Under the pieces are notes generated by a model that saw only the letters and a list, made by a program, of their open reading frames with translations, was not told the DNA's origin and searched no databases. A program made the translations under genes and the position numbers. A stretch of 64,000 nt of DNA from Methanofollis aquaemaris (GTDB lineage Archaea > Halobacteriota > Methanomicrobia > Methanomicrobiales > Methanofollaceae), in the NCBI RefSeq assembly GCF_017357525.1, contig NZ_CP036172.1:310001-374000 (forward strand), written 5' to 3'. Shown here one piece after another: positions 7,294-41,537 of the stretch (its first letter is position 1; every line of letters begins with the position of its first letter).

Positions 7294-8496
7294 TTACTCA
7301 ATACTCCGCAGATCAACTCTGCCGTCGACGCGGACGTAGTCCCCTTTCTTCAGGTTAAGATGAAAATATTTTTTGTCGATCTCGATCAGGATCTTTCCAA
7401 CACCAAAATCGACAACGGCATAATGCCACCGTTCGGCGTCTTTGGGATCGTCGGGGATGATGATCTCATCGATGCGTCCGTCGATTTCAAGGGCCGGCAT
7501 CGAGGGATCCACGTATGCATGCTGATCTTCGGTTTCGTTCTTTTCCAGAGACGTCACAAGCATGCTCAGCACGACGCTTCCGTTTTTCTCAACCATCTCA
7601 GGATTGCAGAGCATCTCGTCATCGAACACAGATGCCCGAGTACCGTCTGCAAATTCAACGCGTACGACCTGAGTGTATACCACGTCTTGGTATTCGGCAT
7701 CCTGCCTCGCGCCCACGATGTGGACAGGAACCTTGAGACTCTCTTTCAGCGCCCCATCTACAATATGGCCGGTTTCAGGATGTGCCGTTACAAGATACCC
7801 ATTTTCGGCAATATAGAGGCGCAACGTCCTCCCATGAACTGGTTCACGATACTGGAAGACGGTCTGCTCGATCTCGACACCCTCCCGCGCACCGTTTAGG
7901 ATCAGATCCCTGACCTTATCCTGTTTCACATAGTCCAAGCCAAAGGCGGAATAAAATTGGTTGCCTGACGGGGTGTTAACATGGTTATACACGATGTGAA
8001 TCCAGCCGCTTCCTCCTTGATTGTCCTGATCCCACACACCGATTAAGTCGTTCCGGCAGCCTTTGACTCTTACATAGTCACCGATCTTATAAGTTGCTAT
8101 AGCATCTCTTTCATCCCAACAAAGGTCTACCCCGATAGTGCCGACACCGATGTCGATAGAAAGAGAGTGATGTTTCTTATCGATATCAACGATCTCACCA
8201 AAAAAAAGAATGGGTTCTTTTTCTATGCTGACTACATCGTCAGGTGAGCGGTATTTTGATTCAACGCCCTTTGCAGGTGAAGAGTGTTTTCCGACATGGG
8301 CAGCAAATGCTAGAATACCCACTGTCTTGACTGTGCCTATCATCTCGTCTCTACTGCTCCCATCAGAGTCGAAAAGGTAAATTATCGTCCCGTCCTGCAG
8401 TTTGATAAAGACAAGTTGTTCATACACCTGTCCATTCTCGCCCAGCATGACCGGAATATTTTTCAAGATTTTTCCTTTCACACGCGCTCGAAACAT
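7294..8496 (-). CDS. Toxin domain flanked by two copies of a putative immunity domain
   Basis: 400 residues. ATG 8496 is chosen over GTG 8505 because AGGTGA lies 5 nt before it; it begins 12 nt after the stop of the secreted toxin gene, so it is probably translationally coupled. Residues 158-248 are homologous to the C-terminal toxin of that upstream protein (shared GGSGWIHI, then NGYLVTAHP; compare NGYLRTAHP). Residues 1-152 and 255-400 are two divergent copies of one beta-rich domain, each with a V-x-Q-L/V-V-x-V-x-L/F-x-DGT start and an ending of the type GDYVRVxGxxDL. The N-terminal domain of the protein at 32.7 kb is related. No signal peptide, so presumably cytoplasmic. I infer an immunity or regulatory role; the toxin copy may be active or a decoy. 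Confidence 0.72.
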   Translation of the reverse strand: MFRARVKGKILKNIPVMLGENGQVYEQLVFIKLQDGTIIYLFDSDGSSRDEMIGTVKTVGILAFAAHVGKHSSPAKGVESKYRSPDDVVSIEKEPILFFGEIVDIDKKHHSLSIDIGVGTIGVDLCWDERDAIATYKIGDYVRVKGCRNDLIGVWDQDNQGGSGWIHIVYNHVNTPSGNQFYSAFGLDYVKQDKVRDLILNGAREGVEIEQTVFQYREPVHGRTLRLYIAENGYLVTAHPETGHIVDGALKESLKVPVHIVGARQDAEYQDVVYTQVVRVEFADGTRASVFDDEMLCNPEMVEKNGSVVLSMLVTSLEKNETEDQHAYVDPSMPALEIDGRIDEIIIPDDPKDAERWHYAVVDFGVGKILIEIDKKYFHLNLKKGDYVRVDGRVDLRSIE

Positions 8497-8508
8497 CGAC
8501 TTCACCTA

Positions 8509-22207: not shown

Positions 22208-22395
22208 AGTGAGGGCAGCATTCTCGCGCGCTGAGATAAATATGGTGTCTGGGGATGGGGAGTACCTTACAGATGAAGATTGATGGCCAGATAATTATAT
22301 ATTTCATGTGTTGCTATGTGGTTGTAGTGAGTAAATCCTTCCCGAAAAGGATGAGGCCGCCTTGAGGCGGGTGGGACGAAGTAGGGAAGGGGTCA

Positions 22396-23052
22396 CTATT
22401 TTCTGCGTCCGTTAAAGTAATCCAGTGCAATGGTGATGCGATTTTCAAACACAGAGTAGTAGTCATTATAGGGCAGAGGTTCTCTGTAATGTCGGTGCAC
22501 TGCTCCTGCAATAAAATCAACAGCCTGTATGCAATGATTCTTTTTTGAATCAGCGTGGAGAATTTCCAGATCATGCTCCCCCGTGTGGTTCGAATGCTCC
22601 TCCATCGAACGATAAAGAAGATATTTATCAAACTCATCTCTGACCACACCATCCAGAGATTTGTCTATTATCACATTGACATCATGTGAACATCCGTACT
22701 CTGATAATATTGTCGAAACAAGAGAACCTGTGATATAATTGTACAAAACCTGGCGTTTATCTCTGAGATTAATGTAGACCTGTTCTTTTCTCAGGACTGC
22801 GTATGCGATATCAACATCCGTCCTTGAGATACATTCCAGCACACGCCTTCTGTATGTGTCATCAGTATTGTGGTATTTTAACTCAGAGATGTTTTTGTAT
22901 TTCTTTGGAAATTTTTTCTTGACCCTCTTCATACAGGTCTTACACTGCTGAACTTTTTCTGGCCCTTCTGCGATAATTGCTCCTACGATAAAGTATGAAG
23001 AACTATTCCCGCTAAAACCGAGATCGCCTGATTCATCAATGTAAATATTCAC
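22396..23052 (-). CDS. DUF3800 domain protein
   Basis: About 218 residues from GTG 23052, where the domain begins (VNIYIDESGDLGFSG); the frame stays open to 23151 (TTG) but only adds non-family sequence. DUF3800 proteins have an RNase H-like fold with the N-terminal DESGD acidic motif and a C-terminal QAVDFIAGAV helix carrying the last acidic residue; both are present, with CSHDVNVIIDKS between them. The family is often found in mobile or defence contexts and its activity is not established. Lower GC than its neighbours and repeat sequence on its 5' side suggest acquisition. The start codon is uncertain. Confidence 0.78.
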   Translation of the reverse strand: MNIYIDESGDLGFSGNSSSYFIVGAIIAEGPEKVQQCKTCMKRVKKKFPKKYKNISELKYHNTDDTYRRRVLECISRTDVDIAYAVLRKEQVYINLRDKRQVLYNYITGSLVSTILSEYGCSHDVNVIIDKSLDGVVRDEFDKYLLYRSMEEHSNHTGEHDLEILHADSKKNHCIQAVDFIAGAVHRHYREPLPYNDYYSVFENRITIALDYFNGRRK

Positions 23053-23159
23053 GCCATGAGGGGATGGCAGGATGTCGGAAATACAATCACCCCTGATCTG
23101 ATCAATAGAATTGATGAATAATATATTGCATGGCCCATTCAATGTGGGCAATTTTATAG

Positions 23160-26479: not shown

Positions 26480-27418
26480 TCAGACCTGGCGGTCAAAGAC
26501 GAACTGCTTCGAGCCGTCGGCCCCTTGGGCGGCGACGGCGACATTCACCGGCGTGCCGTTGTTGTGGACCGCCGTCCCCTGCCAGGTGGCCCGCGACCCC
26601 TCGAAGGCCAGAAGCCCGTCGACGGGTTCGACGGTCACGGCAAGACCATTCGCGGCAGCGACGGTAGCATTCGAGGCCTCGACGCCGTCGAGATAGACCG
26701 AGAAGTGAGGGTCGGTGAGGACGGAGGTGGCGGGCACTTCCTGAGCGGTGAGGACGATGGTGTCGGGCGCGGTGCGTTCGACCGAGATGACGCTCCTGCC
26801 GATCGCCGCGACGGTCGGCTCCGTGCCGGGCATCGCATGGGCGACGAGCGGCGGGAGGAACATAAAGACAAGGATGATGAGGACGGTCGAACCGAGGACC
26901 AACCGCGATGCCCGGGCATTCTCTTCGGGGGTGGTTGCCTTTTCCAGAGAGGAGAAGAAGATGAGGGCCCCGAGGACGGCAAGGACCACCATGGTCAGGG
27001 TCAGGAACATGAGGGAGAGAGCATGACTGAGAATTAAGGAGGCATGAAAGATGAGATCCCCGACCAGGTCGACGCTCCCGTGACTGAGGAGATCTGAGAC
27101 CAGAGTCAGGATCACGAAGACGAAGCAGGCCATACACCCCGAAACACCGCCCGCAAAGGCAGCCTGCGCCCGGTTCTTCCCGGGGTACAGCGCGACCGCG
27201 ACCATCCCGGCAAGGAAGAGGGTCAGGAAGCAGAGCACGAGGGTATGGGCGCAGCCGATGGTGAAAAAAATGCCATGTTCGAAACTGAGGAGATCATACC
27301 AGCACCAGTCATAGACATATGATCTCAGGAATACAATCATCCCGCCGCCGAGAATTCCGGCAAGGAGCGAGGCGGGGAGGAGACGCACAAGGTCTTGAAG
27401 AGTCTGTTCTGTGTTCAT
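26480..27418 (-). CDS. Membrane protein with pilin-like C-terminal domain, paralogue 2
   Basis: 312 residues. Same plan as the genes at 13.7, 38.0 and 39.3 kb: an N-terminal LLPASLLAGILGGGMIVFL helix, about five membrane segments, the conserved cytoplasmic loop SLEKATTPEENARASRLVLGS, and a C-terminal domain beginning APDTIVLTAQEVPA with HFSVYLDG and ATWQGTAVHNNGTPVNVAV. This is the copy farthest from any toxin gene; the methyltransferase follows it. Its 3' part is more GC-rich and its C-terminal domain somewhat diverged (DRQV end). Function unknown. Confidence 0.72.
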   Translation of the reverse strand: MNTEQTLQDLVRLLPASLLAGILGGGMIVFLRSYVYDWCWYDLLSFEHGIFFTIGCAHTLVLCFLTLFLAGMVAVALYPGKNRAQAAFAGGVSGCMACFVFVILTLVSDLLSHGSVDLVGDLIFHASLILSHALSLMFLTLTMVVLAVLGALIFFSSLEKATTPEENARASRLVLGSTVLIILVFMFLPPLVAHAMPGTEPTVAAIGRSVISVERTAPDTIVLTAQEVPATSVLTDPHFSVYLDGVEASNATVAAANGLAVTVEPVDGLLAFEGSRATWQGTAVHNNGTPVNVAVAAQGADGSKQFVFDRQV

Positions 27419-32725: not shown

Positions 32726-34375
32726 TCATGAATGCTCTCCACCACGCCCTTCCAGATATCTCCGATATTTTTCCCGGCACTCCTCAAGATGGGGTATGAG
32801 AGGATAGTTCATGGAAGAACTCTCAATCCAGAGCGGGGATGTACCGACCAGAGCGATGTACGTCTCGACCATCGCAAATAGTTCTTCAATCCAATCTTCG
32901 AGCCTGAACCGGATGTCCCGTGCATCGGTACCCGGCAGATACCAGTTATCGAGTGAGAACAGGATCGTACCATCTTCACCGGGGGTGAGGGTTATGGTTC
33001 GCTGACCAGGGGTGGTCAGATCGATTGGAAACGCCTTCCATTCAAGGCATTCTGCTACTGCAAAGAGGGGACCCTCTACAAATATTGTCGCCCAGAAGAG
33101 TTCTTCATAGAAAATGTCATCGAATAACACCTCCCCGTCAACCGAGAGGGAAAACCTGGACAGAGCATTTTCCGGAGTTTTACCTTCGGTGAGGGTGACA
33201 CCGAACGAGAGATGTGACACCTCGCCGTCCGGTGTCGGGGGGAGTACCGGCCGGTATGCACGCCAGGCGCGATCTACGAGAGCATCGTAGTCCAGGATCT
33301 GCCCGTCGCCAGGCAGGATCCCCTGACCGGAACAGCGCACCATCACTTCGTTCCGACGATCGGCCAGTACCCGGGGGTATGGAGTCCTGCTCACATGCGG
33401 GTGGATCTCAAGCACCTGCCAGAGATACCGGTCCACAGCATCGACGACGACCTCCACATAGTCCCTCACCGGCATCGCCGTCTCCTGCATGACAACGGCG
33501 TCTGATTCCTGTACCGAGATCTGCACCAGACCGCGGCCACAGGGTTTCAAGACCAGATGGGGGCAGGACAGAGAACCGGACCAGATGGTGACAGTCTTTC
33601 CATCGAGCAGTTCGAGGCCGGATTGAACGAACCTCCCCAGCAGAGAGAATAGGGAGGTTTCGATGAAATGATCCCCGGAGGTATCGGTTTCTCCCCCAAA
33701 TACAGGGACATCATCTATTTTCAGGGAAAAAGAACCTCGTTGCCTTAACCATGCGTCCCAGGGTATGCTCTCAATATCTGACGTATCAACCAGGTAATTT
33801 TTCGGAGAGAGGTTTTCTTCATCGATGAAAAATTCGAGAGCGAAAGGCGCTCCGTTTCCTTTTTCTAATAGATCTCCGATATCAACATCCGACTGGATGG
33901 CGTCCGATCGCGGATCTGTCAATTCATGGATACTCACCAGATCTCCACGACCGATTTGAAGATGGAGATGGTCGCCTTCATGGAAATGATCCTGATCTTT
34001 CTCAGGCAGGTCAATCATGATCGCGTCGGGGCCAGAATTCACGATACCATGACTTCCCTCATAAATGCCATTCTGCATGGTCCCGATGTGAACAAGTGTA
34101 CCCCATACTTCGAACGAAGACGAGCCCCGGGTATCGGTCAGGATTCGTGGAACAACTTCCGGGATCTTCTCGATACCCATATCAATACTGCTTTCTATCT
34201 CGACCGCCACCCATTTCCAGAGCATCGAGAGAGGGCACTTCACAAACCAGGAAATGAGTTCAAGCCTGGTACCGTCCAGCATCTCAACCGTAACCAATTC
34301 GTCATAGGACTCCCCCTCATAGAGACTGTTGGGCTCGATCTCCAGAACCCTCACCCTGAGCAGGGTCGAGATCAT
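32726..34375 (-). CDS. Polyimmunity-like multi-domain protein
   Basis: 549 residues, no signal peptide. Residues 1-155 form a beta-rich domain of the same type as the two flanking domains of the protein at 7.3-8.5 kb (YDELVTVEMLDGTRLEL, then IVNSGPDAIMIDL and GDHLHLQIGRGDLVSI). The rest holds two divergent copies of another domain, about 175-330 (GSFSLKIDDVPVF ... DAVDRYLWQVLEIHP) and 390-525 (SRFSLSVDGEVLF ... LEDWIEELFAMVETY). A protein made only of such modules fits the polyimmunity proteins described for polymorphic-toxin loci. The start overlaps the 104-residue gene by ATGA. Last gene of the locus C run. Function inferred. Confidence 0.62.
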   Translation of the reverse strand: MISTLLRVRVLEIEPNSLYEGESYDELVTVEMLDGTRLELISWFVKCPLSMLWKWVAVEIESSIDMGIEKIPEVVPRILTDTRGSSSFEVWGTLVHIGTMQNGIYEGSHGIVNSGPDAIMIDLPEKDQDHFHEGDHLHLQIGRGDLVSIHELTDPRSDAIQSDVDIGDLLEKGNGAPFALEFFIDEENLSPKNYLVDTSDIESIPWDAWLRQRGSFSLKIDDVPVFGGETDTSGDHFIETSLFSLLGRFVQSGLELLDGKTVTIWSGSLSCPHLVLKPCGRGLVQISVQESDAVVMQETAMPVRDYVEVVVDAVDRYLWQVLEIHPHVSRTPYPRVLADRRNEVMVRCSGQGILPGDGQILDYDALVDRAWRAYRPVLPPTPDGEVSHLSFGVTLTEGKTPENALSRFSLSVDGEVLFDDIFYEELFWATIFVEGPLFAVAECLEWKAFPIDLTTPGQRTITLTPGEDGTILFSLDNWYLPGTDARDIRFRLEDWIEELFAMVETYIALVGTSPLWIESSSMNYPLIPHLEECREKYRRYLEGRGGEHS

Positions 34376-34686
34376 TGGTCCGCACCTCCCTCAGCGATCA
34401 CGGGGAGACGAGCGTCCTGCATCCTGAGGACGCCTCCGGGCACATATTGGGTGATATCGATGTCACGGTAGTCGCCGTTCTCATAATGGTGTGTGCTGTG
34501 AGAGAATGATATATACGAATAGAGCGCAGTGACGTCCTGACTTTCCCACATGCAGTTTTCAGGCATTTCTGTCTCTTTCACAGCCCACACAAGTGCCCGG
34601 CGGACCTCGTCACCGGACCGCACGACACAATCCCGGTGGTTTCCATGGCTTCCGGGTTTTTTATTGACATTTTTTTTCGAACTCAT
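34372..34686 (-). CDS. Small protein of locus C, unknown
   Basis: 104 residues from ATG 34686, with AGGAGG about 10 nt upstream. Not recognised. Its C-terminus (DIDITQYVPGGVLRMQDARL) is nearly repeated in the chimeric remnant at 39.0 kb (DITLYVPGGVLWMQDARL), so it belongs to a local family. The N-terminal 30 residues are basic and polar. It is translationally coupled (4-base overlap) with the polyimmunity-like gene. It may be an immunity protein or a truncated one. Confidence 0.55.
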   Translation of the reverse strand: MSSKKNVNKKPGSHGNHRDCVVRSGDEVRRALVWAVKETEMPENCMWESQDVTALYSYISFSHSTHHYENGDYRDIDITQYVPGGVLRMQDARLPVIAEGGADQ

Positions 34687-34850: not shown

Positions 34851-36500
34851 TCATTTCTCCAGGTGACGCCACCAGAACTGTTCGGGATAATAGTCGGCGG
34901 CGGTGTCGGCATAGATGCCGACACTGAAGTCACGATGCCTGTCATCAGCGTCAGAATACACGTCACGGTGCAGTTCATCGAAAGCGTCTACCTGAATCTT
35001 CATCTCTGTAAGGTCGTGGTCCTTCGCCATCTCCATCATCAGGATCTCAAGGGCATCGCGCTCGTTGAGGGTCTGTTCAATCTCTGTCCGGTAGGGTTCA
35101 AGGACGGTCACCAACGCCACCACAAGCCAGTAGTTCTCTACGAAAAACTGCAACTCGGTAAAGGCCTGCTCCCTGAACGGTGCGCCGCCACGCGCTTCAA
35201 GGTCGGCAAACCGCCGGTTCAACTGCTCATACTCGACCCTGGCAGAAGAGAGATCGGTTCCTTTTGTCTCATAATAATCCAGAAGAAAACCCAGGAAATA
35301 TTTGCAGCAGTACGGTGCCCTGGCGGTGTAGCGCCCCTTTACCTCAAGGGTGTCCGTGTGGGTTTCGGTCTCGCCGATCACCACGGCATAGCGATCCAGC
35401 GCCTGCCGCACCAGACCAGAGAGGGTATCGGTGGTATGCTCGCTCATTCTCATCAGTGGGATGAGACAGGCATCAATGAAGGACATATCCGACTTCTCCC
35501 TCATCATTTCACTCACTTCCTCCAGCGAGATGAGACCGTCCCGCTCGTCGACATAGGGCAGGTAGACACCTGAGACCCCGGTTGCTTCGGGCCGGAAGTA
35601 CGACTGGATCTCTCCTTTCTCGTTCCCGGCCGCAAGGGTGTTGCTCGCACGGTCGTAGACTATCAGGTTATGAAGGTCGGCCTGATAGTAGACCTCCACT
35701 CCATCACGCAGGGACGCAAGGTGGCAGGCCTGCTCGAAATACTCCTGCATCATCCACTTGTTTCCCACCGTGATCAGATCGAGGGGAGCGAGATTGCGGG
35801 CCTGCCTGCAGTATTCATGCACCCCTTCCCGGTCGCTGAACTCCCCGGAAAAACCGAAGTCAGGCCCATGACGGGCAAAGTGGAGAGACGAGATGTCGGG
35901 GGGGATACGCTGTGCGAGGATAAGGGAAGGGTGCGCCCACCAGAACGGATCTGGGGGTAGATAAAAATACCATGAATCAAGACGGCGGATCTCCTCTTCG
36001 GCAAGGTTCCCGATACCCAACTGATATTTGAAGCGCAGAACGCGGTCGAGGGCAGCGATCCTGATATCGATCTCATGGAGGTCGTGGTCACGCCTGAGTT
36101 CGGCCCGAAGGATTTCTATCGAGTTCCGGCGATCAAGACTGTCATCAACTCTGTCCGGGAAGACAGGATGTAAAAAGGAACGGACATCCCGCCAATAATT
36201 GTCGATCCGATATTGGAACTCCTCCATGAGTTTTTTACGGAGTGGTTTGCCAAGATGCTTCTCGGTCGCCTCCCACTTCGTATTCAGAAGTGTGTACTGA
36301 TCTTTGTACTCCGACACATCGACGCCTGCTCCCTCAAGATAGGAGAGGAGGTACCGGGCCTCGCTTCTTCGCCGATAGGGATAAGATGCACGAAACTTCC
36401 CGTCGACTTCAATTTTGTCAAAAAAAGCATTGGTGCTCTCAATACTTCCGTGAAAATATTCTAAATGCCACTCCAACCTCTGAATTAATTCCTCTGACAT
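34851..36500 (-). CDS. RNase-type toxin domain between duplicated helical domains, paralogue 1
   Basis: 549 residues, no signal peptide. Residues 1-195 and 363-549 are two divergent copies of a helical domain. Each has a block of the type ERDALEILxxExxxDHDLxE, followed by an aromatic ending (DPFWWAHPSLI and PEQFWWRH). Between them, residues 204-320 look like a BECR-type RNase toxin module known from the C-termini of polymorphic toxins: SSLHFARHGPDFG, an EYxxxA helix, then VVYDR/VYDRASNTLAAGNEKGE and IQSYFRPEATG. Compared with its neighbour it has about 30 extra residues inside the toxin part, an apparent duplication of the helix before VEVYYQ. It repeats the toxin-in-the-middle plan of 7.3 kb with unrelated flanks. 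Role unknown. Confidence 0.7.
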   Translation of the reverse strand: MSEELIQRLEWHLEYFHGSIESTNAFFDKIEVDGKFRASYPYRRRSEARYLLSYLEGAGVDVSEYKDQYTLLNTKWEATEKHLGKPLRKKLMEEFQYRIDNYWRDVRSFLHPVFPDRVDDSLDRRNSIEILRAELRRDHDLHEIDIRIAALDRVLRFKYQLGIGNLAEEEIRRLDSWYFYLPPDPFWWAHPSLILAQRIPPDISSLHFARHGPDFGFSGEFSDREGVHEYCRQARNLAPLDLITVGNKWMMQEYFEQACHLASLRDGVEVYYQADLHNLIVYDRASNTLAAGNEKGEIQSYFRPEATGVSGVYLPYVDERDGLISLEEVSEMMREKSDMSFIDACLIPLMRMSEHTTDTLSGLVRQALDRYAVVIGETETHTDTLEVKGRYTARAPYCCKYFLGFLLDYYETKGTDLSSARVEYEQLNRRFADLEARGGAPFREQAFTELQFFVENYWLVVALVTVLEPYRTEIEQTLNERDALEILMMEMAKDHDLTEMKIQVDAFDELHRDVYSDADDRHRDFSVGIYADTAADYYPEQFWWRHLEK

Positions 36501-36514
36501 TTTCTATCTCCCGA

Positions 36515-38029
36515 TCATTTCCTGGGGTGACGCCACCAGAACTGTTCGGGATAGTAGTCTGCGGCGGTGGCGGCATAGATGCCAGCATCTCTGAATTCGT
36601 ATTCAAAATAATATATGTCCCGGTGCAATTCTTCGAGAGCGTCCACCTGGATCTTCAACTCTGTGAGGTCGTGGTCCTTCGCCATCTCTATCATCAGGAT
36701 CTCAAGGGCGTCGCGCTCGTTGAGGTCGTGCTCGGCTTCGGTCAGGTAGGGTTCGAGACTGGCCACCGACGCCGCCACCCGCCAGTAGTTCTCCACGAAG
36801 AACTGCAACTCGGCATAGACCTGCTCCCTGAACAGTGTGCCGCCGCGTGCTTCGAAGGCGGCAAGCCGCCGGTTCAACTGCTCATACTCAGTTCTGGCAG
36901 AAGAGAGATCGGTTTCTTTTGTCTCATAATGATCCAGGAGATAACCCAGGAGATATTTGGAGCAGTACGGCGCCCTGGCGGTGTAGCACCCCTTCACTTC
37001 AAGGGCGTTCATGTGGGTCTCGGTCTCGCCGATCACCGTGGCATAGCGATCCAGGGCCTGCCGAACAAGTTCTACGGGGGTCTCGGAGGTGGCGGCCCGT
37101 TCAGCCTTCCCCTTCAACGGGATAAGCAGGCCGCGTGCATCCCGTTCGTCGACGTACGGGCGGTAGACGCCTGAGACCCCGGTCGCTTCAGGCCTGAAGT
37201 ACGACTGGATCTCTCCCTTCTCGTTCCCGGCCGCGAGGGTGTTGCTCTCGCGGTCATAGACCACCAGGTTATCGACATCGGCCTGATAGTAGACCTCCAC
37301 TCCCTCACGTAAGGACGCAAGGCGACAGGCCTGCTCGAAATACTTCTGTACGCCCTCATGGTCGCTTAATCGCCCAGAAAGGCCGAAGTCGGGGCCGTGA
37401 CGGGCGAAGTGGAGAGATGAAGTGTCAATGGGACCGCGCTGCGCAAGGATGAGAGACGGGTGTGCCCACCAGAATGGATTTGGGGGAAGATAGAGGTCAC
37501 GGGATTCGAGACGGTGGATCTCCTCATCAGTAAGATTCTTGATATCTCGTTCATATTTGAAGCGCAGAACCTGGTCGAGAGCGGCGACCTTGAGGTCGAT
37601 CTCATGAAGGTCGTGATCGCGGCGGAGTTCGGTCCGAAGGGTCTCTATTGCAGTACGATGATCGAGATCATTGTCAACTTCGTCTAGAAAGTCGGGATCT
37701 AAAAAGTGACTGGCAATTCGCCCGTACTTTTCGACCTCGAACTGTAAGTCCACCATGAGTTTATCACGGAGTGATTTGCCAAGAAGATCTTCTGTTTCTT
37801 TCAACTTTCTACAGAGGAACGAATACTTCTTCCTGTATTCGGAAACCTCAATTCCATTGGATTCAAGATAGGATAAGAGATATTTTAATTCATATTTTGA
37901 ATTATAAGGGGAATGAGCGGAATATCTTCCAAGAACCTCCAGTCGATCAAAAAAAGTTTGAGTTTCCTCTATATACTTCTCGAAATATTTCATATTTCTT
38001 TCGAGCCGATTTACGTATCTATCCAGCAT
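36515..38029 (-). CDS. RNase-type toxin domain between duplicated helical domains, paralogue 2
   Basis: 504 residues and clearly related along its full length to the gene 14 bases downstream. Helical domain 1 spans about residues 1-200, the toxin module about 205-305 (SSLHFARHGPDFGLSG ... VVYDRESNTLAAGNEKGE), and helical domain 2 about 330-504 ending in PEQFWWRHPRK. It lacks the 30-residue internal duplication seen in paralogue 1 and so gives the basic form. It follows a pilin-like membrane gene by 19 bases. Candidate catalytic residues (His of HFARHG, Arg of YFRPEAT) are kept, so the toxin module may be active unless held by the flanking domains. Confidence 0.7.
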   Translation of the reverse strand: MLDRYVNRLERNMKYFEKYIEETQTFFDRLEVLGRYSAHSPYNSKYELKYLLSYLESNGIEVSEYRKKYSFLCRKLKETEDLLGKSLRDKLMVDLQFEVEKYGRIASHFLDPDFLDEVDNDLDHRTAIETLRTELRRDHDLHEIDLKVAALDQVLRFKYERDIKNLTDEEIHRLESRDLYLPPNPFWWAHPSLILAQRGPIDTSSLHFARHGPDFGLSGRLSDHEGVQKYFEQACRLASLREGVEVYYQADVDNLVVYDRESNTLAAGNEKGEIQSYFRPEATGVSGVYRPYVDERDARGLLIPLKGKAERAATSETPVELVRQALDRYATVIGETETHMNALEVKGCYTARAPYCSKYLLGYLLDHYETKETDLSSARTEYEQLNRRLAAFEARGGTLFREQVYAELQFFVENYWRVAASVASLEPYLTEAEHDLNERDALEILMIEMAKDHDLTELKIQVDALEELHRDIYYFEYEFRDAGIYAATAADYYPEQFWWRHPRK

Positions 38030-38048: not shown

Positions 38049-39008
38049 TCAATTCAACGAAACCCGGACCTTGAGGTACTCGATCTGTAAATCAGACGCA
38101 GAACCATCGGCCCTATGGACAACGACTCTCACCGGCGTACTGTTGTCCTCGAACACGGCTCCCTTCCAGGTGGCCTGCGATCCCTCGAAAGGCTGCAGTC
38201 CGTCGGCAGGCTCAACGGTCACGGCAAGGCCGCTCGCAGCAGCGGCGGAGGCATTCGAGACGTCGATGCCGTCGATATAGACCGAGTAGGGAGGGGTCGC
38301 AAGAGCGCAGGCGGGGAGTACTTCATGGGCGGCGAGGACGATGGTGTCCGGAGCGGTGCGTTCGAGTGAGATGAAGGTCCACACCGGATACGCCTCGATC
38401 ATGCCGGCACTGAACATCAAGTGGGTAACGAGCGGCGGGAGGAACAGAAGGACGAGAATGATGAGGATGGTCGAGCCGATGACCAGCCGCAATGCCCGGG
38501 CATTCTCTTCGGGGGTGGCCGCCTTCTCCCGCGAGGAGAAGAGGAGGAGGGCCCCGAGGGTGGCAAAGGCCGCCACTATCAGGGCCGGGAAGAGGGTAGA
38601 GGCGAAATTGACGAGGATGTAGGAGATGCTGTCGATGAGGAACCCAACATGGTCGGTGACCCAGTCCCTGAGGAGATCTGAGACCAGAGTATGAACCATA
38701 ATGACAAAGAAGGCCATACATCCGGAAACACCGCCCGCAAAGACAGCCTGCGCCTGGCCCCCCACCTCACCCTGTTGCAGCGCGACCGCGAGCATCCCGG
38801 TAAGGAAGAGGGTCAGGAAGCAGAGCACGAGGGTATGGGCGTAGCCGATGGTGAAAAAAATACCGTGGCAGAGACCTAAGAGATCATACCAGCACCAATA
38901 ATAGGCATAAGATTTCAGGAATACGATCAGTCCGCCGCCGAGAAGCCCGGCAAGGAGCGAGGCGGGGAGGAGTCTTTTGAGGTCTTGGAGTGTCTGTCCT
39001 TTTTTCAT
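38049..39008 (-). CDS. Membrane protein with pilin-like C-terminal domain, paralogue 3
   Basis: 319 residues from ATG 39008, which overlaps the stop of the chimeric remnant (ATGA); the frame before it is not related to the family. Starts MKKGQTLQDLKRLLPASL, has about five membrane helices, the loop SREKAATPEENARALRLV, and a C-terminal domain starting APDTIVLAAHEVLPA with YSVYIDGIDVSNASAAAASG and ATWKGAVFEDNSTPVRVVV. It directly precedes a toxin-domain gene, and its 3' end and spacer (TTGAATTGAATTTGATCGG) are the same as those of paralogue 4, showing that the pair was duplicated as a unit. Confidence 0.73.
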   Translation of the reverse strand: MKKGQTLQDLKRLLPASLLAGLLGGGLIVFLKSYAYYWCWYDLLGLCHGIFFTIGYAHTLVLCFLTLFLTGMLAVALQQGEVGGQAQAVFAGGVSGCMAFFVIMVHTLVSDLLRDWVTDHVGFLIDSISYILVNFASTLFPALIVAAFATLGALLLFSSREKAATPEENARALRLVIGSTILIILVLLFLPPLVTHLMFSAGMIEAYPVWTFISLERTAPDTIVLAAHEVLPACALATPPYSVYIDGIDVSNASAAAASGLAVTVEPADGLQPFEGSQATWKGAVFEDNSTPVRVVVHRADGSASDLQIEYLKVRVSLN

Positions 39009-39259
39009 GATAAAACCAGGTGAAAATTCAGGTTCCGGCTCTCTCCGCCGCCGCCCACCCCACGGAGACGAGCGTCCTGCATCCAGAGGACGCCTCCGGG
39101 CACATACAGGGTGATGTCGATGGGGCCACGCCGGGCGAGGATGAGAGATGGGTGCCACCACCAGAACGGATCGGGTGGGAGATGGATGTCACGGTATTCA
39201 AGATAGAGGATCTCCTCATCGGAGAGGGTATCGAGTCCTCGCTCATATTTGAAGTGCAT
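39005..39259 (-). pseudogene. Chimeric remnant of a helical-domain/toxin gene
   Basis: 84 residues from ATG 39259. The first 50 match positions about 155-200 of the helical-domain proteins (MHFKYERGLDTLSDEEI ... LPPDPFWWWHPSLILARRGPID). They then join without a break to DITLYVPGGVLWMQDARL, the C-terminal sequence of the 104-residue gene at 34.4 kb. So it looks like the product of a deletion that fused two genes, removing the N-terminal domain, the toxin and the second helical domain. It is still open and coupled by ATGA to the next gene, so it may be translated. It stands just where a full paralogue would be in the duplicated unit. Confidence 0.68.
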
Positions 39260-39277: not shown

Positions 39278-40273
39278 TCAATTCAACGAAGCCAGGACGC
39301 TACGGTTCAGAACCATTAACTCAATCTCAGAACCATCGGTCCCGTGGGCGATGACGGTGACGCTCGTCGGCGTACTGTTGTCCTCAAACACAGGCCCTTT
39401 CCAGGTGGCCTGCGACCCCTCGAAGGCCTGCAGTCCGTCGGCTGGCTCGACGGCCACGGCAAGACCGCTCGCGGCAGCGGCGGAGGCATTCGAGACATCG
39501 ATGCCGTCGAGGCCGTCGATATAGACCGAGAAGTGGGTGTCGGCGAGAGTGAAGGCGGGAGGCACCTTGTGGGCGGTGAGGACGATGGTGTCCGGGGCGG
39601 TGTGTTCGAGTGAGATGAAGGTCCCCATCAACGCCGCTGAGGAATGAACCCTGATCATGCCGGCACCAATCATCAGGCGGGCGACGAGCGGCGGGATGAT
39701 CATACAGACGAGGATGATGAGAACGGTCGAGCCGAGGACCAGCCGTGATGCCCGGGCATTCTCTTCAGGGGTGGCCGCCTTTTCCAGGGAGGAAAAGAGG
39801 ATGAGGGCGCCGAGGACGGCAAGGGCCGCCATTATCAGGGCCGCGAAGAGGGTAGAGGCGAAATTGACGAGGATGTAGGAGATGCTGTCGATGAGGTACC
39901 CGACCGGATCGGTGCCCCCGTTGCCCACGTACCAGAGGAGATTTGAGACCCGAGTATAAACCCTAATGACAAAGAAGGCCATAAATCCGGAAACACCGCC
40001 CGCAAAGGCAGCCTGCGCCTGGCTCCCTACCTCACCCCGTTGCAGCGCGACCGCGAGCATCCCGGTAAAGAAGAGGGCCAGGATGCAAAGCACGAAGACC
40101 TGGAGGGTGCTGCTGATGTCGAAAATGCTGTGGTTGAGACAGATGATGCCATGCCAGCACCACATATCGGCATACGATCCCAGGAATACAAACAATCCGC
40201 CGCCGAGAAGCCCGGCAAGGAGGGCGGCGGGGAGGAGGCGTTTGAGGTTCTGGAGTGTCTGTTCTTTTTTCAT
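39278..40273 (-). CDS. Membrane protein with pilin-like C-terminal domain, paralogue 4
   Basis: 332 residues from ATG 40273 with GGTGAT upstream; the longer frame to 40393 is upstream coding sequence in another phase. Starts MKKEQTLQNLKRLLPAAL, with about five membrane segments, the loop SLEKAATPEENARASRLVLGS, and a C-terminal domain APDTIVLTAHKVPPAF with HFSVYIDGLDGIDVSNA and ATWKGPVFEDNSTPTSVTV. It is very close to paralogues 1 and 3 at DNA level, so gene conversion or recent duplication is likely. It follows the 414-residue membrane protein by 19 bases. Confidence 0.73.
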   Translation of the reverse strand: MKKEQTLQNLKRLLPAALLAGLLGGGLFVFLGSYADMWCWHGIICLNHSIFDISSTLQVFVLCILALFFTGMLAVALQRGEVGSQAQAAFAGGVSGFMAFFVIRVYTRVSNLLWYVGNGGTDPVGYLIDSISYILVNFASTLFAALIMAALAVLGALILFSSLEKAATPEENARASRLVLGSTVLIILVCMIIPPLVARLMIGAGMIRVHSSAALMGTFISLEHTAPDTIVLTAHKVPPAFTLADTHFSVYIDGLDGIDVSNASAAAASGLAVAVEPADGLQAFEGSQATWKGPVFEDNSTPTSVTVIAHGTDGSEIELMVLNRSVLASLN

Positions 40274-40292
40274 GATATCACCAGTTGAAGAT

Positions 40293-41537
40293 TCAGGTCC
40301 TGATCCGCTCCACCGCCGCCCATGCCACGAAGAGCACCGCCGCTCCCGCCGCGGCGATGACGACACCCCGGAGAGTCGAGACGAGGAGGGCAAGCGGAGG
40401 GGGAAGAGAGAGGTCGAGCGGATCAGTCCAGAGGACGAGCACCACGAGGTACGGGAAGAGGAGGGTGCCCGAGACTGCGACGGCGGGGATGGGCCGTCTC
40501 AACGGGAGGCGACGTGTGAGGAGGAGGAACGGCACGACCGCCGCCAGGCAGAGGAGGCTGAGGCCGGACAGAAATGTCATGAGGCTCAGCAGGGCGTCGA
40601 GGAGGGGAGGGGCGTCGAAGTACGACCATCCGGGAAGAAAATTGGGCAGGTCCATACGCCTCGACGCCCCCATCAGGGAGGCGGGGACGAGATAGAGGAG
40701 GGCGAGGCCGGCGGCGAGGATCAAAAGACGCCGCGGCCCGACCTGCACCTCAGTCCTCACGCCCTCGTAGAGGAGGGCGGCGGCGCACCCGAAGAGGAGC
40801 GGGGTGAGGAGGAGGACGCCGGCGTACCGGACCATAGCGAGGGCACCTATGTCCGGCATCCGGAACGTCGGTTCGGGATCCTCCCCCGGCGGCCTGACCG
40901 CTGACGGCGAGAAGCGTTCTGCGATCAGCGCCTTCAGCGAACCCTCCGGGTCGGGGCCGACGACGTCCCCGCAGGTTCCGTAGTAGACGATGAAGAAATC
41001 GTCTCCATTGTCGAACGGCCTCACGTAGGTGAGGACGTACCCCGTCGCCGTCTCGTTCGTGAAGCGCAATGCCGGGCACACCTGCTCTGCCGCAGCGGCA
41101 GGGAGATGGTCGCCGAGGTCGAGCATCACAGGAGATATCTCGCCACGGTCGGCCAGCAAACCGAGGAACATCTTCTTCTCGTCCCTGAAGGCCTCTTCGT
41201 CGGTGTACCACCACTGGCCGATGACGTACTCTTCGCCGGTCTGCTCCCGCGTGTACACCGCATGAAGGGGAGTCGCCGATTGAGAGGAGAAAGAAAGAAG
41301 GGGGCCGTATCCGAAATCACTCAGGTTCGTATGAAAGTCGCCCTCAATGGTGTGGACAGTGGAGGGCGGGTATCCCGGCGTGCCCGAACCGTCGGGAATG
41401 AACCAGGCCTGCTTCATAAAGGGATCTGGCTGGTCGGAGCCGCAGAGAAAGAGGCCGGGTTCGAGAAAGCCCGGAACAAACCAGATGAAAACGACACAGA
41501 TGAGATACAGTCCTATGAGCGCCGCTGGCCGCGGCAT
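40293..41537 (-). CDS. Membrane protein with large extracytoplasmic domain, first gene of locus C
   Basis: 414 residues from ATG 41537, preferred because GAGGAG lies just upstream; ATG 41618 would add 27 polar residues and has no ribosome site. One N-terminal helix (LIGLYLICVVFIWFVPGFL) leads to about 210 residues outside the membrane, with two or three cysteines and an FFIVYYGTCGD strand. About five helices follow in the last 180 residues. No family recognised. A TATA box at 41679-41690 precedes it, and gaps of 20 bases or less join it to the next four genes, so it opens the locus C transcript. Possibly a surface receptor or a resistance factor; unproven. Confidence 0.6.
   Translation of the reverse strand: MPRPAALIGLYLICVVFIWFVPGFLEPGLFLCGSDQPDPFMKQAWFIPDGSGTPGYPPSTVHTIEGDFHTNLSDFGYGPLLSFSSQSATPLHAVYTREQTGEEYVIGQWWYTDEEAFRDEKKMFLGLLADRGEISPVMLDLGDHLPAAAAEQVCPALRFTNETATGYVLTYVRPFDNGDDFFIVYYGTCGDVVGPDPEGSLKALIAERFSPSAVRPPGEDPEPTFRMPDIGALAMVRYAGVLLLTPLLFGCAAALLYEGVRTEVQVGPRRLLILAAGLALLYLVPASLMGASRRMDLPNFLPGWSYFDAPPLLDALLSLMTFLSGLSLLCLAAVVPFLLLTRRLPLRRPIPAVAVSGTLLFPYLVVLVLWTDPLDLSLPPPLALLVSTLRGVVIAAAGAAVLFVAWAAVERIRT

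Follow-up and report, generated by a model that had tools for sequence, protein, structure and literature searches.

P0003, the 549-aa product of a gene in the window (the whole 64,000-nucleotide stretch of DNA analysed here, part of a 2.75-Mb genome), is likely a heterogeneous polyimmunity protein of domain order F + Z + Z that provides orphan or non-self immunity against toxins of a family we term T. By definition, a polyimmunity protein unites a combination of immunity domains in a single chain (Zhang et al. 2012, PMC3482391). At least two immunity domains were recovered in P0003, with F and one Z being significant and a further Z moderately supported. In other genomes, genes for stand-alone F and for stand-alone Z are both found immediately 3' of T, which upheld the original prediction of a polyimmunity-type protein.

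Domain architecture of P0003

The ORF at 32726-34375 on the minus strand was present as described, with the following features in and around it.

33911 to 34375, minus strand: F immunity domain (aa 1-155), assigned by profile tests; modelled as all-beta with two small OB-like barrels
33251 to 33880, minus strand: first Z/V-type immunity domain (aa 166-375), assigned by profiles, 6000 shuffles, alignment and a model with pLDDT 80
32729 to 33250, minus strand: second Z/V-type immunity domain (aa 376-549), more divergent, scoring above all 6000 shuffles, hhalign 28-44%, moderate confidence
34383 to 34392, minus strand: Shine-Dalgarno-like GAGGGAGGTG ahead of the start codon, rated strong
34372 to 34686, minus strand: 104-aa ORF, an internally deleted copy of a family of 260-aa proteins

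The start of P0003 overlaps the stop of the 104-aa ORF by 4 nt (ATGA), and we propose that P0003 would be produced in the cytoplasm via translational coupling to this upstream ORF. Searches of Pfam, NCBIfam and PDB with P0003 yielded no significant match, and the whole protein had no homologue in 232 genomes of the order, while scans of the genome and viral contig collections returned none either.

The N-terminal 155 residues had been claimed to share the domain type of the flanks of a sandwich protein at 7.3 kb (P0001, described below). A profile (A1) of 15 relatives of these flanks, from P0001 and from other genomes and with P0003 left out, aligned to residues 4-150 of P0003 with an hhalign probability of 95.9 (E 6.4e-9). 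The corresponding HMM scored 35-41 bits on P0003 in hmmsearch, compared to a best score of 4.7 bits among 2000 shuffles. The claim was thus confirmed, as the profile comparison suggested along with it returned significant similarity. Exactly three F copies were found in the whole genome, namely the two flanks of P0001 and the one in P0003, the latter sharing 17-25% identity with all other F of the order. The P0003 model reached a pLDDT of about 80-95 across most of aa 1-150. Structure matches of the OB-fold type were weak ones only, and they hint that F might adopt an OB fold.

The lead to the remainder of the protein came from the 104-aa ORF, whose nearest relative is a 260-aa gene in genome G062. 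There it is placed after T and a 158-aa gene, Z, which resembles the C-terminus of P0003. Relatives of Z were present in G085 (two copies), G090, G108, G133, G522 (two), G510 and G459. Z profiles of one and six members were not significant against P0003, and significance was reached only once four more distant members had joined. This 10-member profile scored 13.2 and 10.2 bits on the two halves (maximum among 6000 shuffles 7.1), with hhalign E-values of 5e-6 for the first and 3e-4 for the second. Members of a related family, V, were found via the same 10-member profile, and the Z/V link was therefore tested in three ways, with shuffles, with a set of 3465 ORFs and through structure prediction. 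With the combined Z/V profile, the first half scored 29.7 bits (hhalign 95.9%, E 5e-9) and the second half 7.6 bits, compared to a shuffle maximum of 4.9 (hhalign 28%, E 6e-4). Among the 3465 ORFs this profile detected P0003 in two stretches with E 1.6e-8, the next non-member having an E-value of 0.36. AlphaFold2 modelled residues 166-375 with pLDDT 80 and pTM 0.80 when Z/V rows were supplied, and mostly below pLDDT 60 when they were not. Z is an alpha+beta domain for which no PDB fold match was found at E≤0.001.

On these profiles and models, the first C-terminal part was assigned to Z/V at significance and the second was judged a Z/V copy with moderate confidence, so that the predicted architecture is F + Z + Z with its third domain at moderate confidence. 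The description of the C-terminal part as a tandem duplicate was borne out in that both halves match one external family, the second only moderately, but residues 166-375 and 376-549 compared directly gave a Smith-Waterman score no better than shuffles. An immunity-toxin-immunity arrangement of this part, like that of neighbouring proteins, was ruled out, since both parts fit the immunity family and profiles of T and of a second toxin, X, do not match. The 104-aa ORF was likewise ruled out as a hidden T or X toxin, as it belongs to the 260-aa family.

The F domain of P0003 is placed on a long branch (3.09) in the F tree, and from this together with the internal deletion in the upstream gene, decay or a changed role of P0003 is possible. 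P0003 might then be what is left of a former array end, decaying or under neutral drift and no longer functional, a view to which a relict at 39.06-39.27 kb, the lack of a detected orthologue, and the low GC3 and weak codon-usage score shared with other array genes would also fit. However, all 549 codons are intact behind a strong Shine-Dalgarno sequence, the F domain retains conserved positions (DGT and GD among them), and the models for the F and first Z domains are confident. Codon usage scores equally low in P0001, even though that protein is conserved intact in several genomes. We consider a functionless remnant unlikely and favour a polyimmunity protein.

The toxin T and its neighbours F and Z

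T showed homology to the CdiA-CT BWH57 toxin of Serratia (PDB 7m5f_C, E 2e-5), which is a BECR-fold RNase toxin (PMC8616854), and a weak match to Pfam PBECR3 (E 0.0013). It is thus related by sequence to a solved BECR RNase, and the HxxxxH region is kept.

Within the order, F occurs as a stand-alone ORF of ~160 aa that immediately follows a T-terminated protein, either large or orphan (G056, G088, G051, G052, G077, G112 and G085), or on both sides of T in a single F-T-F protein (in the genome studied here and in G061/G063, G072, G089 and G094, as well as in G103 with broken frames). The T-F pair was also found in genomes inferred to be Methanosarcina-like or haloarchaeal (G348, G522, G503 and G517). 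The gap from T to F ranged from -4 to +29 nt, with 88 nt in one broken-frame case. Z is located directly 3' of T in seven of ten Z genes, with gaps of -26 to +16 nt and a weak T match in G510, and on one contig of G522 the order T-Z-T-F is consecutive. The trees of T and F pair by subtype without exception among the cassettes of the order, T type 1 going with n-type F and T type 2 with c-type F.

The slot behind T, the subtype pairing and the relationship of T to a BECR RNase indicate that F is most likely the antidote of T. From the shared position we infer that one toxin family is countered by two antidote families, F and Z, that are unrelated to each other. An antidote role does not account for every F, since two haloarchaea carry it in fusion with HEAT-like repeats and with no toxin detected nearby (L079, 5389-6162; L081, 3207-5357), which suggests another use of F.

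Chaperone genes, too, adjoin effectors. F and Z could accordingly be chaperones or adaptors for the export or loading of T-type effectors, or else regulators, and P0003 a multi-domain adaptor; the HEAT-like fusions are compatible with this, and the weak OB-fold-type matches suggest possible nucleic-acid binding. Yet F and Z follow the C-terminal toxin domain even in orphan toxin cassettes that have no export region, the subtype of F tracks that of the toxin, and two unrelated families fill the same slot, as is the case with antidotes. Moreover, V is fused in these arrays to SUKH, an established immunity superfamily. We assign an adaptor role little probability. Regarding F and Z as antidotes, each domain of P0003 would derive from a stand-alone protein that is inferred to bind and block a T-type BECR-fold RNase with specificity.

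Locus C, locus A and the array

The window has two toxin-bearing loci, and the first of them (locus C, 7.3-12.8 kb) contains the following features.

8509 to 12783, minus strand: P0002, large surface-type protein with signal-like N-terminus, NosD/beta-helix, TSP3 repeats and C-terminal T
8548 to 8817, minus strand: BECR-type toxin domain T at the C-terminal end of P0002
7294 to 8505, minus strand: P0001, F-T-F sandwich
8035 to 8505, minus strand: first F of P0001, the subtype-matched immunity of the upstream P0002 T, 3 nt downstream of it

The genome contains two T domains, both in locus C and none at P0003. The T embedded in P0001 (window 7768-8037) and its relatives (L041, L042, L047 and L049) keep the conserved His and Thr residues across genera, and to judge from sequence the embedded toxin may still be active.

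A check suggested with the original prediction further implied that P0003 protects specifically against the toxin at 8.5-12.8 kb, P0002, in which case it would be an antidote displaced by 24 kb. P0003 does share its F domain with proteins adjoining this toxin, and T domains occur nowhere else in the genome. This specific pairing was nevertheless not supported: the slot 3 nt behind the toxin is already taken by a subtype-matched F, T and F subtypes pair strictly, and F domains of the cognate type share ~58% identity on average, whereas that of P0003 is not subtype-matched and only ~20% identical to them. A displaced antidote of P0002 is hence very unlikely. As no T toxin accompanies P0003 in this genome, it is probably an orphan or non-self immunity protein, and given the matched F next to the P0002 toxin and the distance of its own F, it most likely covers other, non-self variants of T.

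Locus A (34.8-38.0 kb) lies next to P0003 and its 104-aa ORF, and a relict is found at higher coordinates.

34851 to 36500, minus strand: Q1, Y-X-Y sandwich (immunity Y, toxin X, immunity Y)
36515 to 38029, minus strand: Q2, second Y-X-Y sandwich, a duplicate of Q1 with DNA identity of about 73-88% by segment
39064 to 39274, minus strand: relict in which a Y-domain end runs into the tail of the 104-aa ORF, a deletion trace in the array

Within the relict, 59 nt are 93% identical to 34404-34462. In line with such deletions at the array end (this relict and the internally deleted 104-aa ORF), it is plausible that the original toxin beside P0003 has been lost.

Other proteins that end in X and are immediately followed by a stand-alone Y (~200 aa) are found in G085, G089, G063, G072, G094, G047 and G112. 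In five of these genomes (G085, G089, G063, G072 and G112) T/F and X/Y cassettes share one array, at most ~6 kb apart, for example in the orders T, F-T-F, X, Y (G089), X, Y, T, F-T-F (G063) and X, Y, T, F, V (G112). In the window, loci A and C are separated by about 22 kb. The original prediction had tied them together, through a shared domain, as one system with exchange of modules. The joint arrays in five related genomes are a firmer basis for this linkage than a shared domain alone, and gene order identifies loci A and C as modules of a single type of array. Recent exchange between the two loci did not find support (about 21% identity), as the F domain of P0003 is 17-25% identical to all other F of the order and blastn of locus A against locus C produced no meaningful match.

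Sandwich proteins have evolved from two different toxin/antidote pairs, as F-T-F and as Y-X-Y. A lone Y immunity gene is located elsewhere in the genome (G000:C1:1973260-1973844, L102). Four paralogous membrane proteins with the motif LLPASLLAGxLGGG (window 13696-14679, 26480-27418, 38049-39161 and 39278-40393) border the toxin loci or lie between them and could be recombination points. A DUF3800-X RNA (Rfam RF02984) was detected at window 22325-22398 on the plus strand, adjoining an ORF on the opposite strand (22396-23151, minus).

Comparison with known immunity systems

Like bacterial polyimmunity proteins (PMC3482391), P0003 carries several immunity domains per polypeptide, with tandem copies of one family plus another. 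It differs from them in being archaeal, in its component families F and Z/V, neither of which was matched by a Pfam or NCBIfam model, and in that both of its families would serve one toxin family. Polymorphic toxin systems were described as rare in archaea, and extended polyimmunity loci as confined to certain bacteria (Zhang et al. 2012, PMC3482391). In contrast to such loci, P0003 is part of a toxin array and not of a toxin-free locus, and in locus A, Q1 and Q2 each contain an X toxin domain. With orphan immunity genes and CdiI/Rhs immunity of CDI loci it has in common an antidote without toxin at the 3' end of a cassette array, but it consists of three fused domains instead of one, and no CdiB/Rhs components were identified. 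T is related in sequence to the toxin of the CdiA-CT BWH57/CdiI BWH57 pair of Serratia marcescens (PDB 7M5F). The immunity protein of this pair, a 98-aa alpha/beta protein (PMC8616854), showed no relation to F (all-beta) or Z (alpha+beta).

Similar fusions, V+V and V+SUKH, were found in G108 and G090. Like P0003, they are fused immunity domains in Methanomicrobiales arrays, with one domain type related to Z. Their partner domains differ from those of P0003, and they are linked to a toxin-like family, W, and not to T. These V fusions (V+V of 391 and 384 aa, V+SUKH of 356 and 348 aa; L151 5553-6728, 9025-10179 and 7216-8286, and L150 12052-13098) add to the polyimmunity proteins of methanogen arrays, and a V+V among them is located directly behind a toxin-like ORF (W). 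A full-text search of open-licence papers turned up nothing on polymorphic toxins in Methanomicrobiales apart from a survey centred on Thermococcales. The kind of protein to which P0003 belongs is known, while its domain families F and Z/V were previously unlisted.

In our proposed scenario, P0003 is the 3'-terminal member of a polymorphic-toxin array of Methanomicrobiales and would neutralise T-variant toxins delivered by neighbouring non-kin cells. A more far-reaching and rather tentative reading is that of a multi-domain shield, in which two unrelated inhibitor folds (F and two Z) act against one toxin superfamily. If true, this would mean broad resistance to non-kin BECR RNase variants instead of one-to-one cognate immunity.

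Methanogens and haloarchaea appear to share toxin/antidote cassettes with F and Z/V immunity families for one BECR toxin family, and methanogens would also fuse these antidotes into polyimmunity proteins. This provides concrete, testable toxin-antidote pairs for conflict among archaeal cells, and a probable case of one toxin fold being served by two unrelated antidotes, F and Z.
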